From positions 3,900,973 through 3,964,972 of the forward strand of contig NZ_KV440949.1 of NCBI RefSeq assembly GCF_001636315.1: a stretch of 64,000 nt of DNA, in the 5' to 3' direction. The notes under the pieces are model-generated. The model was not told the origin of the DNA. It worked only from the letters and a program-made list of their open reading frames with translations, and made no database searches. Below are positions 12,505 to 44,303 of the stretch, one piece after another. A program made the position numbers and the translations under genes. Numbering within the stretch: position 1 is the first letter of the stretch; every line of letters begins with the position of its first letter. This DNA comes from Neobacillus mesonae (GTDB lineage Bacteria; Bacillota; Bacilli; Bacillales; Cytobacillaceae).

Positions 12505-12770
12505 AACAAAAAGCCCGCCCCTAATGAAGGGACGAGCTTGCTCGCGTTACCACCCTACTTCCGCAACAATAAAAAAATATCACTACGGCTCTCGATCAAC
12601 GTACTATCATACGCGTCCAATTGTAACGGCAGGCAATCCGGCATAGCTTACTAAAATAATTTTCGGCCATGCATCTCAGAGATGATTTTCACCTGTTTCC
12701 TGACACCGGCTTTCACCAACCGCCGGCTCTCTGTGGTCAAGGAAGGACAAGCTACTCTTCTCGTCATCGA
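12505..12770 (-). promoter_or_regulatory. T-box riboswitch controlling brnQ
   Basis: On the minus strand the leader starts with the stem I signature GATGACGAGAAGAGTAG, then carries AGAGAG and a specifier region (GGTGAAAATCATCTCTGAG). The T-box AGGGTGGTAACGCG lies at 12541-12556 (complement) and is followed by a terminator stem (AAGCTCGTCCCT/AGGGGCGGGCTT, 12511-12539) and a T-run. ATC in the specifier loop would mean tRNA-Ile; that reading is tentative. Confidence 0.93.
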
Positions 12771-12812
12771 TTTTGATTTTTAAAAAAAGTCAGAAATAAT
12801 TTTGTTAAAGTT

Positions 12813-41271: not shown

Positions 41272-42363
41272 ATGTGTAACCAAGAAACGATCCTGAATAT
41301 AATTAGATTAGATCCAACTATATCAGAGCAGGCCATTGCTAATAAAACTGGTTTTTCTCTCGAAGAGGTGAATGAAACAATTGTCTCGCTTATTCAAGCA
41401 GGAAGGATTGTGGGTCGCAGTTTCATTCTTCCGGAGGAGAAAAAAATTGTTTGTATCGGCGGTGCCAATGTGGATCAAAAAGTCCAGGTGCTAAATCAGG
41501 TAACGTACGAAACATCTAATCCAGCAGTCAGCACAAGGTCAAGAGGGGGCGTTGCTCGTAATGTCGCTGAAAATTTAGGTCGCCTGGGTCTTCAATCGTC
41601 GCTGCTGGCTTACATTGGCGGCGATTCAGAGGGGGAATGGCTGCATGAAAATACGAAGCAATTTGTGAACTTAGCCCCATTAAAAGTGATTGAGGGGAAA
41701 TCAACTGGGACCTATACGGCTGTCCTGGATCCTGAAGGGCAAATGCTGCTCGCACTTTCAGACATGAGAATTTATGATGATGTCGAAGAGGATTTTATCG
41801 AAAAAAACATGCATTACCTTCAACATGCAGAGATGGTACTTCTTGATACAAATTTTCCAGGGGGCATTCTCGAGCAAGTTATTTCAAGCTGTAAAGCCTA
41901 TCAAATTCCGCTTTGTGTGGCTCCAGTATCCGCACCAAAGGCGGAAAAGCTGCCTGAATCACTAGAAGGAGTTACATGGCTGATTGCAAACCATAAAGAG
42001 GCAGAAGCACTAGCAAAGTTGAAAATACAAACCGAGGGTGATTTCTTCCGCGCAGCAGAAGTGATCCTTAACCGAGGGGTTGAAAAAGTAGTAATCAGCA
42101 GAGGAAACCAAGGAATCATCTATTTTACGAAGGATGGAGAAGCGGGTGCCATTGTTGTCCCCGATATTTTAGTAACAGATGTAACAGGGGCAGGGGACTC
42201 ACTGATTGCGGGTATTTTATTTGGATATTTAAAAGGGTTAAGTACAGAGAATGCATGTAAAATTGGAATCAGCTGTTCATTAATTACGATTCAATCTGGA
42301 GAGACGGTGAATCCGGAATTAAACCATTTAAAGCTGATTAAAGCGTTTCAAAGCTGTTTTTAA
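41272..42363 (+). CDS. PfkB-family sugar kinase with N-terminal winged helix
   Basis: ATG at 41272 follows GGGAGGG. The product has 363 residues: a winged helix-turn-helix (1-58) and then a PfkB/ribokinase domain with the start signature IVCIGGANVDQKV and the C-terminal catalytic DVTGAGDSLIAG (Asp base). This HTH-kinase layout is seen in YeiI/PsuK-like pseudouridine or nucleoside kinases. No psuG or nucleoside hydrolase is adjacent, so the substrate remains open. Confidence 0.85.
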   Translation: MCNQETILNIIRLDPTISEQAIANKTGFSLEEVNETIVSLIQAGRIVGRSFILPEEKKIVCIGGANVDQKVQVLNQVTYETSNPAVSTRSRGGVARNVAENLGRLGLQSSLLAYIGGDSEGEWLHENTKQFVNLAPLKVIEGKSTGTYTAVLDPEGQMLLALSDMRIYDDVEEDFIEKNMHYLQHAEMVLLDTNFPGGILEQVISSCKAYQIPLCVAPVSAPKAEKLPESLEGVTWLIANHKEAEALAKLKIQTEGDFFRAAEVILNRGVEKVVISRGNQGIIYFTKDGEAGAIVVPDILVTDVTGAGDSLIAGILFGYLKGLSTENACKIGISCSLITIQSGETVNPELNHLKLIKAFQSCF

Positions 42364-42389
42364 AAAAATTTAAACTATGTGGAAAATAG

Positions 42390-42430
42390 AGGAAGTTTCG
42401 ACGTTAAACTTCCTTTATTTTTTTTTTCCT
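42390..42430 (+). terminator. Terminator after the PfkB kinase gene
   Basis: AGGAAGTTT/AAACTTCCT stem, a 7-base loop, and a long T-run. Confidence 0.92.
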
Positions 42431-42502
42431 TTAATTATGACAAGGTTTTTGTAGAATTTTGGAAAAGGATGGAGGAAAAAGTAGTTAGAAAGTTTAAAAA
42501 CT

Positions 42503-42530
42503 ATGACAAAAAATAACACTCAGATATAAA
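42503..42530 (+). promoter_or_regulatory. Candidate promoter for the riboswitch-sinI transcript
   Basis: ATGACA (42503-42508), a 16-base spacer and TATAAA (42525-42530). A weaker alternative (TATAGT near 42600) lies closer to the aptamer, so the start site is uncertain. Confidence 0.4.
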
Positions 42531-42616
42531 AGTACTAGATATAATGAAAATACTGATTAATGGATAAGCAAATAGTCCTTGTTTTATATGCAGAAGGATA
42601 TAGTACAAAGAGAATA

Positions 42617-42733
42617 TCACACAGAAAAAGGCAAACCTATTGAAAGATAGGGACGCAAAGCTGCGGGTCTAAGGTAAGTATTGCTTGCTAGGATGGCCGG
42701 GTTACCTGGAATACAAAAGTATTTTAGGGGGGA
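42617..42733 (+). promoter_or_regulatory. Cyclic-di-GMP-I (GEMM-I) riboswitch before sinI
   Basis: The aptamer core has all class I marks in order: CACAG, GGCAAACC, a P2 hairpin (CCTAT-TGAAAG-ATAGG), GGGACGCAAAGC, a P3 part with GGGTCTAAGG, and CCGGGTTACC. Directly after it, CCTGGAATAC-AAAA-GTATTTTAGG (42705-42728) forms a 10-bp hairpin. Its 5' arm shares bases with the aptamer's 3' end and its 3' arm covers the start of the SD AGGGGGGAAG (42726-42735). The layout suggests control of translation initiation of the SinI gene; direction (on or off) cannot be told. Confidence 0.93.
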
Positions 42734-42738
42734 AGAAA

Positions 42739-42867
42739 GTGATAACAAAGGAGAAAGTGGTTGATGTAATGGATGAAGAATGGGTAGCCCTTATTTGTGA
42801 GGCGAAAAAGTTAGGGTTAACGATAGAAGAGATTCAAAGTTTTCTGAGCCAACAAGAACAAAAGTAG
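42739..42867 (+). CDS. sinI: SinI-type anti-repressor
   Basis: It starts with GTG at 42739, seven bases after an AGGGGGGAAG site. The product has 42 residues and contains the SinI domain MDEEWVALICEAKKLGLTIEEI, which matches the two-helix region by which SinI binds SinR. SinI blocks SinR and so releases matrix and biofilm genes. It is preceded by a c-di-GMP riboswitch and is convergent with sinR, unlike the tandem sinI-sinR order of B. subtilis. Confidence 0.85.
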   Translation: MITKEKVVDVMDEEWVALICEAKKLGLTIEEIQSFLSQQEQK

Positions 42868-42887
42868 TACTTTTCGTACATAAAAAA

Positions 42888-42925
42888 TAAAAGCATTCTG
42901 CTAGTATAAGGCAGCATGCTTTTTT
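42888..42925. terminator. Bidirectional terminator between sinI and sinR
   Basis: AAAAGCAT-T-CTGC pairs with GCAG-C-ATGCTTTT, with T-runs on both strands. Confidence 0.85.
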
Positions 42926-42940
42926 GTTGCTTAATTTAGA

Positions 42941-43261
42941 TTACCTTTGATTATTCCGCCATTTATTAAATTCAAGGAAATCACGAAATTGATCCTTGGA
43001 CACCCCTGAGTTCATTGCTTCTTTCACAAGATTCATCCAGTCGTTATCTAATTCGGATTGATCGACCTGTTCATGGATTAAATGTTCAACAGGGATATTC
43101 AAAACATGTGATATCTTTTCAAGAAACTGAATGGAAGGATTCTGCTGCAAATTTCGTTCTAGTGAACTTAAATAAGATTTTGCTACGCCTGCTTGTTCTG
43201 CAAGTTCGGATAGTGACATTTTCTTTTCTAAGCGGAATTTCTTTACGCGGTCACCAATCAT
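42941..43261 (-). CDS. sinR: Master biofilm regulator SinR
   Basis: ATG at 43261 matches the B. subtilis SinR start (MIG.R.K..R.EK). The product has 106 residues: a Xre-type HTH (1-60) with SLSELAEQAGVAKSYLSSLERN, almost identical to SinR, and a C-terminal SinI-like dimerisation region (DWMNLVKEAMNSGVSKDQF). It represses matrix operons and is antagonised by SinI, encoded convergently 73 bases away. Confidence 0.9.
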   Translation of the reverse strand: MIGDRVKKFRLEKKMSLSELAEQAGVAKSYLSSLERNLQQNPSIQFLEKISHVLNIPVEHLIHEQVDQSELDNDWMNLVKEAMNSGVSKDQFRDFLEFNKWRNNQR

Positions 43262-43553
43262 ATATCTCACACACCTAATAAATAGTATATTTACGTCTAT
43301 TTTACCAAAAAGAATAAGAAAGTACCATATTAAGAACGAAAACTATTTTGAAAAATAGATAAGATAGGGTTAATATTAAGAGTGTTTACTGCATATGAAA
43401 GGAATAAACTTACTTATAGTCTGTTTCAGTTGCATGCTGCATGCTACAAATACAGTTGACACCAATTGCAATTGAAGCGGTATTTCTTTAACGCAGACAA
43501 TTATGATCAATACATACATAAAATAATAAAAAATGGAAAGGGGACTCTGCACA
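43262..43553. other. Intergenic region between sinR and mapB
   Basis: 292 bases, AT-rich. TTGACA near 43451 may be the -35 of mapB. A short GCATGCT duplication lies near 43433-43445. AAGAACG near 43331 resembles a SinR half-site (consensus AAAGAAC on one strand), which could mean sinR autoregulation; this is weak. No gene is seen. Confidence 0.4.
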
Positions 43554-44303
43554 ATGATTGTCCTTAAATCACAACGCGAAATTGAAGCGATGAAGAAGGC
43601 TGGGGAAATTCTAGCGGCCTGCCATAAAGAAATTGCCAAAATGATAAAACCTGGTGTTACCACTTGGGAGATTGACCAATTTGTGGAGAAATTCTTAAGC
43701 GAACATAACGCAACTCCTGAGCAAAAAGGCTATAAAGGTTATGAATATGCAACCTGCGCAAGTATTAATGATGAAATTTGCCATGGGTTTCCGCGCAAAG
43801 AGCCGCTAAAAGAAGGGGAAATTGTGACAATTGACATGGTTGTTAATTACAATGGGGCATTGGCGGATTCAGCCTGGTCCTATGCCGTAGGTGAAGTGTC
43901 TAATGAGGTGGATCATTTATTAAAAGTAACGAAGGAAGCTCTGTATAAGGGGATTGAACAGGCAGTGCCCGGGAATCGAATCGGTGATATTGGCCATGCC
44001 ATTCAAACATATGTCGAAGGGGAGGGCCTTTCTGTAGTCCGTGACTTTATCGGTCATGGAATAGGTACGGTCATTCATGAAAAACCAGATGTACCGCATT
44101 ACGGACTGCCGGGAAAAGGCGCGAGAATCAAAGAAGGCATGGTATTTACCATCGAACCAATGGTAAACATCGGCATGCACTATACAAAAATGGACAACAA
44201 CGGCTGGACCGCAAGAACTGTAGACGGCACATACTCCGCCCAATACGAACACACCATTGCCATCACCAAAGACGGCCCAATCATTCTAACGAGCCAGGAG
44301 TAA
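43554..44303 (+). CDS. mapB: Type I methionine aminopeptidase, second copy (MapB/YflG-like)
   Basis: The start at 43554 is preferred over an upstream ATG at 43533, since AAAGGGG lies between them. The product has 249 residues. Metal ligands are visible in TIDMVVNYNGALADSA, DFIGHGIG, TIEPMV and QYEHTIAI. It removes N-terminal Met from nascent proteins. It is not next to ribosomal genes, so it is probably the second copy (B. subtilis YflG). The last 45 or so codons are strongly C-ending (about 24 of 28 pyrimidine-ending), just before palindrome copy 4. Confidence 0.92.
   Translation: MIVLKSQREIEAMKKAGEILAACHKEIAKMIKPGVTTWEIDQFVEKFLSEHNATPEQKGYKGYEYATCASINDEICHGFPRKEPLKEGEIVTIDMVVNYNGALADSAWSYAVGEVSNEVDHLLKVTKEALYKGIEQAVPGNRIGDIGHAIQTYVEGEGLSVVRDFIGHGIGTVIHEKPDVPHYGLPGKGARIKEGMVFTIEPMVNIGMHYTKMDNNGWTARTVDGTYSAQYEHTIAITKDGPIILTSQE

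Follow-up and report, generated by a model that had tools for sequence, protein, structure and literature searches.

The sinI locus of Neobacillus mesonae raises two questions: whether the second messenger c-di-GMP acts directly on the level of the SinI anti-repressor, and in which direction it would act. The original prediction placed a class I c-di-GMP riboswitch in front of a very short SinI gene that converges on sinR. In what follows, the window is the whole stretch of DNA that was analysed (64,000 nucleotides), and positions are counted from its first letter. Our main reading, to which we assign a probability of roughly 0.7, is that the sinI leader is a class I c-di-GMP riboswitch that works as a translational ON switch. 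The genes concerned are arranged as follows.

42739-42867, forward strand: sinI, a 42-residue SinI-domain anti-repressor with a GTG start, 29 bases beyond the aptamer
42898-42932, forward strand: terminator-like stem-loops 3' of sinI (consensus scan only)
42941-43261, reverse strand: sinR, with an HTH_3 domain and a SinI-like C-terminal domain, convergent to sinI

The Pfam SinI domain (PF08671) was found on residues 11-36 of the 42-residue ORF with 43.7 bits against a cut-off of 31.4, which identifies a short stand-alone SinI-domain protein behind the aptamer, as predicted. Matches to the B. subtilis SinI structures were weaker (1b0n_B, E 0.0054; 5tmx_A, E 0.0066), and the NCBIfam SinI equivalog model NF046031 scored 25.2 bits against a cut-off of 80. 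Judged by these comparisons, the window SinI is a SinI-domain protein and not a B. subtilis-type equivalog. In every one of the 24 aligned leaders of the same genus, a start codon lies exactly 11 codons ahead of a D-[EQ]-[ED]-W motif, as assigned by a script that favoured the candidate closest to 11 codons before this motif, and the ten codons preceding the motif have entropies of 0.75, 0.49 and 1.38 at codon positions 1, 2 and 3, the pattern of translated sequence. Because the start position is fixed and the entropy follows this pattern, the alignment supports the frame that opens with GTG at 42739. The ORF on the opposite strand carries HTH_3 and a C-terminal SinI domain in Pfam, and its alignment with B. 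subtilis SinR (1b0n_A, E 8.9e-38) covers the full length, in agreement with the convergent SinR that had been proposed. The window SinI would be expected, from these similarities, to bind and inactivate the window SinR.

The leader was assigned to a riboswitch class with the Rfam covariance models.

42620-42709, forward strand: c-di-GMP-I riboswitch aptamer (Rfam RF01051)

The RF01051 match reached 79.6 bits against a gathering threshold of 35, covered the full model (1-87), had an E value of 5.1e-14 for the whole window and aligned without flagged non-standard pairs. The search that had been suggested as a check, Infernal with the Rfam c-di-GMP-I model, thus bore out the predicted aptamer. 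A permissive Rfam scan of 42400-43000 returned nine other matches, every one below threshold (E 0.22-5.6). The score places the aptamer in the RF01051 class, and c-di-GMP is accordingly its presumed ligand. A T-box leader is also present in the window (12525-12776, reverse strand, 142.3 bits). The same genome holds six c-di-GMP-I aptamers and seven GGDEF matches, one of them partial.

The pairing of aptamer and SinI gene recurs throughout the genus. Among 61 genomes, that of the window included, the SinI query matched 58 and RF01051 matched 61, and at least 35 aptamer-SinI pairs with gaps of 30-60 nt were found in at least 28 of the 58 SinI-bearing genomes (again counting the window's own); these counts are lower bounds, since they compare 120 SinI matches with the 150 aptamers listed. 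Because the pairing recurs, chance juxtaposition is ruled out. When 30 SinI loci of the genus were fetched, 24 had the aptamer-platform pattern, one (L017) had an aptamer by Rfam, and one (L033) had an interrupted aptamer; Rfam gave no c-di-GMP match at L034, L038, L039 and L041. At L033, on the reverse strand, the aptamer halves are 217 nt apart, apparently through an insertion in the P3 loop, and Rfam still scores the element at 44 bits.

Beyond the genus, 35 of 51 SinI loci in a collection of named species had an aptamer ending 19-64 nt ahead of the SinI match. The taxa are Neobacillus, Metabacillus, Peribacillus, Pseudalkalibacillus, Alkalihalobacillus, Salibacterium, Virgibacillus, Thalassobacillus, Siminovitchia, Heyndrickxia, Alteribacillus and species labelled Bacillus. 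No aptamer was found at 15 of the 51, and at L083 (Metabacillus arenae) it was 1.3 kb away. There the aptamer (1643-1733) precedes the matched SinI by that distance and lies directly 5' of a SinR match (1998-2321), with perhaps a further sinI between the two. In an even sample across the class, PF08671, which also counts SinR's own domain, was present in 52 of 299 genomes. With the window's own genome set aside, 31 of 51 had an aptamer just 5' of a SinI ORF, spread over 14 lettered families; this number was read by hand from match coordinates, and the regions were then checked by Rfam. The 20 genomes without the pair were four of f2 g4, two of f3, two of f31, four of f43 and eight others; some of the 20 carry SinR-type matches only, G322 is covered by 174 nt upstream, and G221 and G242 each have one aptamer outside the matches listed. 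In the f43 genomes G210, G221 and G242, a SinR-like gene is followed, on its own strand, by a c-di-GMP-I aptamer (767-869 in L242); at L242 the ORFs beyond the aptamer do not resemble SinI. The genome search that had been proposed found the riboswitch-sinI pair widely. The riboswitch on sinI is genuine and conserved, and we consider the identity of both aptamer and target close to certain.

The pair is also found in several copies and outside chromosomes. The genome of the window has a second c-di-GMP-I aptamer (C1:5574512-5574692, reverse strand, 83.4 bits; L001/L009), and the weak SinI match behind it is interrupted by two TAA stops in frame; by its sequence this is a decayed second riboswitch-sinI copy. 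Four riboswitch-sinI pairs occur in another genome of the genus, G044 (L272-L275), with a full-length SinR match only in L272; by eye, a recombinase-like ORF lies near L274 and phage-like ORFs near L275. Among plasmids, 20 records had a SinI match and five were examined, three of which had an aptamer 5' of an annotated anti-repressor SinI. These are the Priestia plasmids L278, L280 and L281 (the last being pBMV_1), in which the aptamer precedes one of two SinI genes that converge on each other; at L279 and L282 an aptamer upstream of SinI was not found. None of 50,697 phage records matched a consensus SinI query at E 0.01.

The arrangement with sinR bears on what the riboswitch controls. Of the 35 named riboswitch-sinI loci, 33 have a SinR-like match nearby, whereas L101 and L121 gave none. 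Convergence with sinR, as originally predicted, holds at the window and at 17 of these 33 loci, but it is not general, as sinR follows in tandem on the same strand, with the same riboswitch, at the other 16. A convergent transcript could in principle act on sinR as an antisense RNA, and Paenibacillus sp. FSL P4-0081 has a c-di-GMP-I element for which such action on a SinR-like gene has been proposed (PMC9943018). We judge an antisense riboswitch very improbable at the window: sinR lies in tandem on the same strand at those 16 loci, a conserved SinI ORF with its own Shine-Dalgarno sequence lies between aptamer and sinR, and terminator-like stems follow sinI (consensus scan only). The published case has a likeness to the window, as the element lies near the 3' end of the SinR-like gene on the opposite strand (PMC9943018). 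The same geometry was seen in L232, from a 6.8-Mb genome of family f13, where a 51-residue SinI ORF lies between the aptamer and a convergent sinR, and in seven other genomes of f13 a SinI match follows closely behind an aptamer. A search of plasmids with the SinR of f13 yielded matches below 60% identity only. Because L232 contains this ORF, a sense riboswitch is the simpler reading, and by analogy with that other genome we infer that the Paenibacillus sp. FSL P4-0081 element (PMC9943018) may instead control, in the sense orientation, a sinI that was left out of the annotation.

How a sense riboswitch could act on sinI is suggested by the elements between aptamer and start codon.

42622-42624, forward strand: P1 5' strand, CAG (conserved in the 24-leader alignment)
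42706-42708, forward strand: P1 3' strand, CUG, common to P1 and the Shine-Dalgarno hairpin
42705-42728, forward strand: expression platform hairpin, CCTGGAATAC-AAAA-GTATTTTAGG
42727-42732, forward strand: Shine-Dalgarno sequence GGGGGG, its first two G paired in the hairpin

The 10-bp hairpin that was predicted to join the 3' end of the aptamer to the Shine-Dalgarno sequence is present: CCTGGAATAC (42705-42714) pairs with GTATTTTAGG (42719-42728) with a minimum free energy of -11.2 kcal/mol and a z score of -3.55, and none of 200 shuffles was equally stable. The P1 strand CUG lies within the first hairpin strand, and for this reason the two helices compete. This competition predicts the ON direction, which the original prediction did not state. 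The simple translational platform proposed there is retained as a translational platform, but the hairpin does not make a switch by itself, since P1 competes for its strand.

P1 pairs the sequence directly 5' of the aptamer with a strand 3' of the conserved YURC, and compensated changes in it were found across lineages (CCAG/CUGG, UCAG/CUGA, GAG/CUC in L240, CCUU/AAGG in L212 and UUAG/CUAA in L225). The P1 flanks were tested in 34 representatives of 94 leaders, less than 78% identical to one another. Their native mean was -5.94 kcal/mol against a permuted mean of -4.02 (sd 0.32), and none of 20,000 re-pairings was as good, in a permutation that leaves some shared ancestry. The 94 leaders contain duplicates (species in both collections, such as L013 and L072), which are absent from the representative sets. 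Read by eye, the best flank duplex is off the CAG/CUG register in about nine of the 34, so the P1 test demonstrates complementary flanks, not one exact helix. The Shine-Dalgarno hairpin behaved similarly in 30 representatives (native -7.91 against permuted -6.59 kcal/mol, sd 0.32; equalled by none of 20,000 re-pairings), and in L222 the hairpin CCGAAG/CUUCGG is the counterpart of CCUGGAAUAC/GUAUUUUAGG in the window.

A relic aptamer, in which the riboswitch no longer responds and Spo0A alone drives sinI, would fit the short P1 of the genus and the split aptamer of L033. P1 has just 3 bp in the window (CAG/CUG, -3.2 kcal/mol) and is broken in 2 of 24 same-genus leaders (L030, L040), which are weak points of the ON reading. 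Set against such decay, complementary change persists in both P1 and the hairpin, and the aptamer core and platform are among the best-conserved parts of the 24-leader alignment. We therefore give this reading very little weight and retain a functional riboswitch.

The direction of control was assessed by computed folds in which P1 was enforced. Exposure of the window Shine-Dalgarno sequence increased from 0.65 to 0.99. Among 30 representatives, exposure rose by more than 0.05 in 19, fell in four (L226, L261, L263, L269) and was flat in seven; among 90 leaders it rose in 55 and fell in 12, the latter including the Neobacillus-type L081, L085, L088, L092 and L093. These sets cover the leaders with an assignable start codon, four leaders, all representatives, having none. 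Of the 24 same-genus leaders, 18 rose, the window among them, and one fell. In family f13, none of seven leaders rose (one down, six flat). In the ligand-free model of the window, which has no ligand term, the fold without P1 is favoured by 7.6 kcal/mol. Aptamers of the c-di-GMP-I class probably bind their ligand tightly enough to pay this cost.

The falling leaders, and the f13 leaders without a rise, are what would be expected if the sign were reversed, with the ligand-bound aptamer lowering SinI through a translational OFF switch or through mRNA stability, and c-di-GMP riboswitches of the OFF type exist in Bacillus, where mcpA has been called 'off' (PMC7793685). We consider this reversed sign unlikely for the window, since the rises among the representatives and within the genus run against it and the shared-strand design predicts ON. 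Furthermore, an OFF switch on an anti-repressor would presumably make high c-di-GMP oppose matrix production. On these models, ON control is favoured for window-type leaders, and not for f13. Coupling of platform to aptamer is seen in the shared strand, in both complementarities being kept across lineages and in the exposure shift computed for the window; it was not seen in the f13 leaders. In the f13 leaders L226, L232 and L247-L251, a separate AAUCU/AGAUU hairpin holds the Shine-Dalgarno sequence in its loop, and enforcing P1 leaves the computed exposure of that sequence unchanged. The f13 platform may work otherwise, or may escape this model.

Two other platforms were considered and rejected. 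A general anti-Shine-Dalgarno pairing by the 5' flank was matched by 5,820 of 20,000 permutations over 30 representatives. Such pairing looks attractive in L089, L095, L097 and L104, with eight consecutive pairs in L097, and is possible as a lineage-specific variant. A platform based on transcription termination was rejected for the window, as the hairpin is followed by GGGGAAG and not by a T run, and a terminator scan of 42200-43700 listed none between aptamer and start codon.

Upstream of the aptamer, the promoter suggests a second input.

42502-42511, reverse strand: Spo0A-box-like site TTTTGTCATA, containing GACAAA (42505-42510)
42540-42545, forward strand: -10 box TATAAT of the sinI promoter, marking a putative transcription start

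TATAAT is present in all 24 aligned leaders of the genus, and GACAAA lies exactly 35 nt ahead of it in each. Sites were scored against TTTTGTCRAA, which we take to be the Spo0A-box consensus, and the window site fits this assumed consensus at 9 of 10 letters. With the same consensus, the mean best score of the 24 near leaders was 8.83, against 7.61 for 200 mononucleotide shuffles (highest 8.17), and that of 18 leaders from other genera was 8.39 against 7.58 (highest 8.00; again 200 mononucleotide shuffles). Because such a promoter is conserved ahead of the aptamer, Spo0A, which may bind this site, probably still acts on the gene, with c-di-GMP as a likely addition to it and not a replacement. 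Between promoter and aptamer (window 42546-42619), a conserved element resembling TAAGTAAA..CCTA occurs in most of the 24 leaders.

These results suggest the following mechanism, in which ligand binding and the sign of control are what we infer. Without ligand, the strand at the 3' edge of the aptamer, CCUGGAAUAC, would fold onto GUAUUUUAGG and tie up the start of the Shine-Dalgarno sequence, and little SinI would be made. With c-di-GMP bound, P1 would close using the CUG at 42706-42708, and the lower half of the hairpin would be lost. The opened hairpin would leave the Shine-Dalgarno sequence free for translation of SinI, which would then bind SinR and relieve SinR repression of matrix genes. 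With transcription apparently starting from the Spo0A-box-like promoter, sinI would combine Spo0A~P at the level of transcription with c-di-GMP at the level of translation.

A broader reading joins these observations, and we offer it tentatively, at slightly less than even odds. Direct control of SinI translation by c-di-GMP would be the common, possibly ancestral, wiring of the SinI/SinR biofilm switch in Bacilli, with Spo0A~P acting at the promoter and c-di-GMP at the ribosome-binding site. B. subtilis, from which the textbook circuit comes, would be an exception that lacks the riboswitch. The module would have spread to plasmids and been amplified, up to the four copies of one genome, and the Paenibacillus riboswitch described as antisense to SinR would in fact serve an overlooked sinI in the sense orientation. 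In Gram-positive spore formers, the riboswitch on sinI would give c-di-GMP a direct and testable link to the SinI/SinR matrix switch, one that work on B. subtilis would miss, and it points to a natural gate in which two inputs, Spo0A and c-di-GMP, set the level of a 42-residue protein. Some of the antisense riboswitches in the literature may also reflect small genes missed by annotation. In B. thuringiensis 407, overproduction of a cyclase raises sinI expression by a route left unexplained in that study (PMC7793685).

The pair itself is not wholly new, and its kind is already known from B. methanolicus MGA3, where a '(c-di-GMP)-sinI' row for BMMGA3_08510 appears in Table 4 of PMC4342826 under control of biofilm formation. 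As in the window, a c-di-GMP riboswitch lies in the sinI 5'-UTR, found there by RNA-seq and Rfam (PMC4342826). That entry consists of a table row and a clause, which leave out how and in which direction the element acts, how conserved it is and how sinR is arranged (PMC4342826). The likeness to the window is one of description. Among the results of searches in open-licence PMC papers, most of them at the level of listings, this was the one explicit precedent, and nothing was found on how a riboswitch-sinI pair works, in which direction, or how widely it is conserved. The new content is the breadth of the pairing, the shared-strand platform, the two-input logic and the re-reading of the 'antisense' SinR riboswitch.

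The B. cereus group resembles the window in having c-di-GMP-I aptamers, Bc1, Bc2 and Bc3-5, in Bacillus (PMC11218506, PMC4933901, PMC4759541). They differ in that sinI is not named in the opening parts of these abstracts; Bc1 has a platform with two terminators, and Bc2 adjoins, upstream, a collagen adhesion gene (same sources). B. subtilis is like the window in its sinI-sinR pair, with the SinR similarity given above and with SinI as the SinR antagonist, and its sinI transcription is activated by Spo0A (PMC8876208). It is unlike the window in two respects: a search of 14 control genomes, B. subtilis included, gave no c-di-GMP-I match, and its SinI chain (1b0n_B) has 57 residues, compared to 42 in the window protein.
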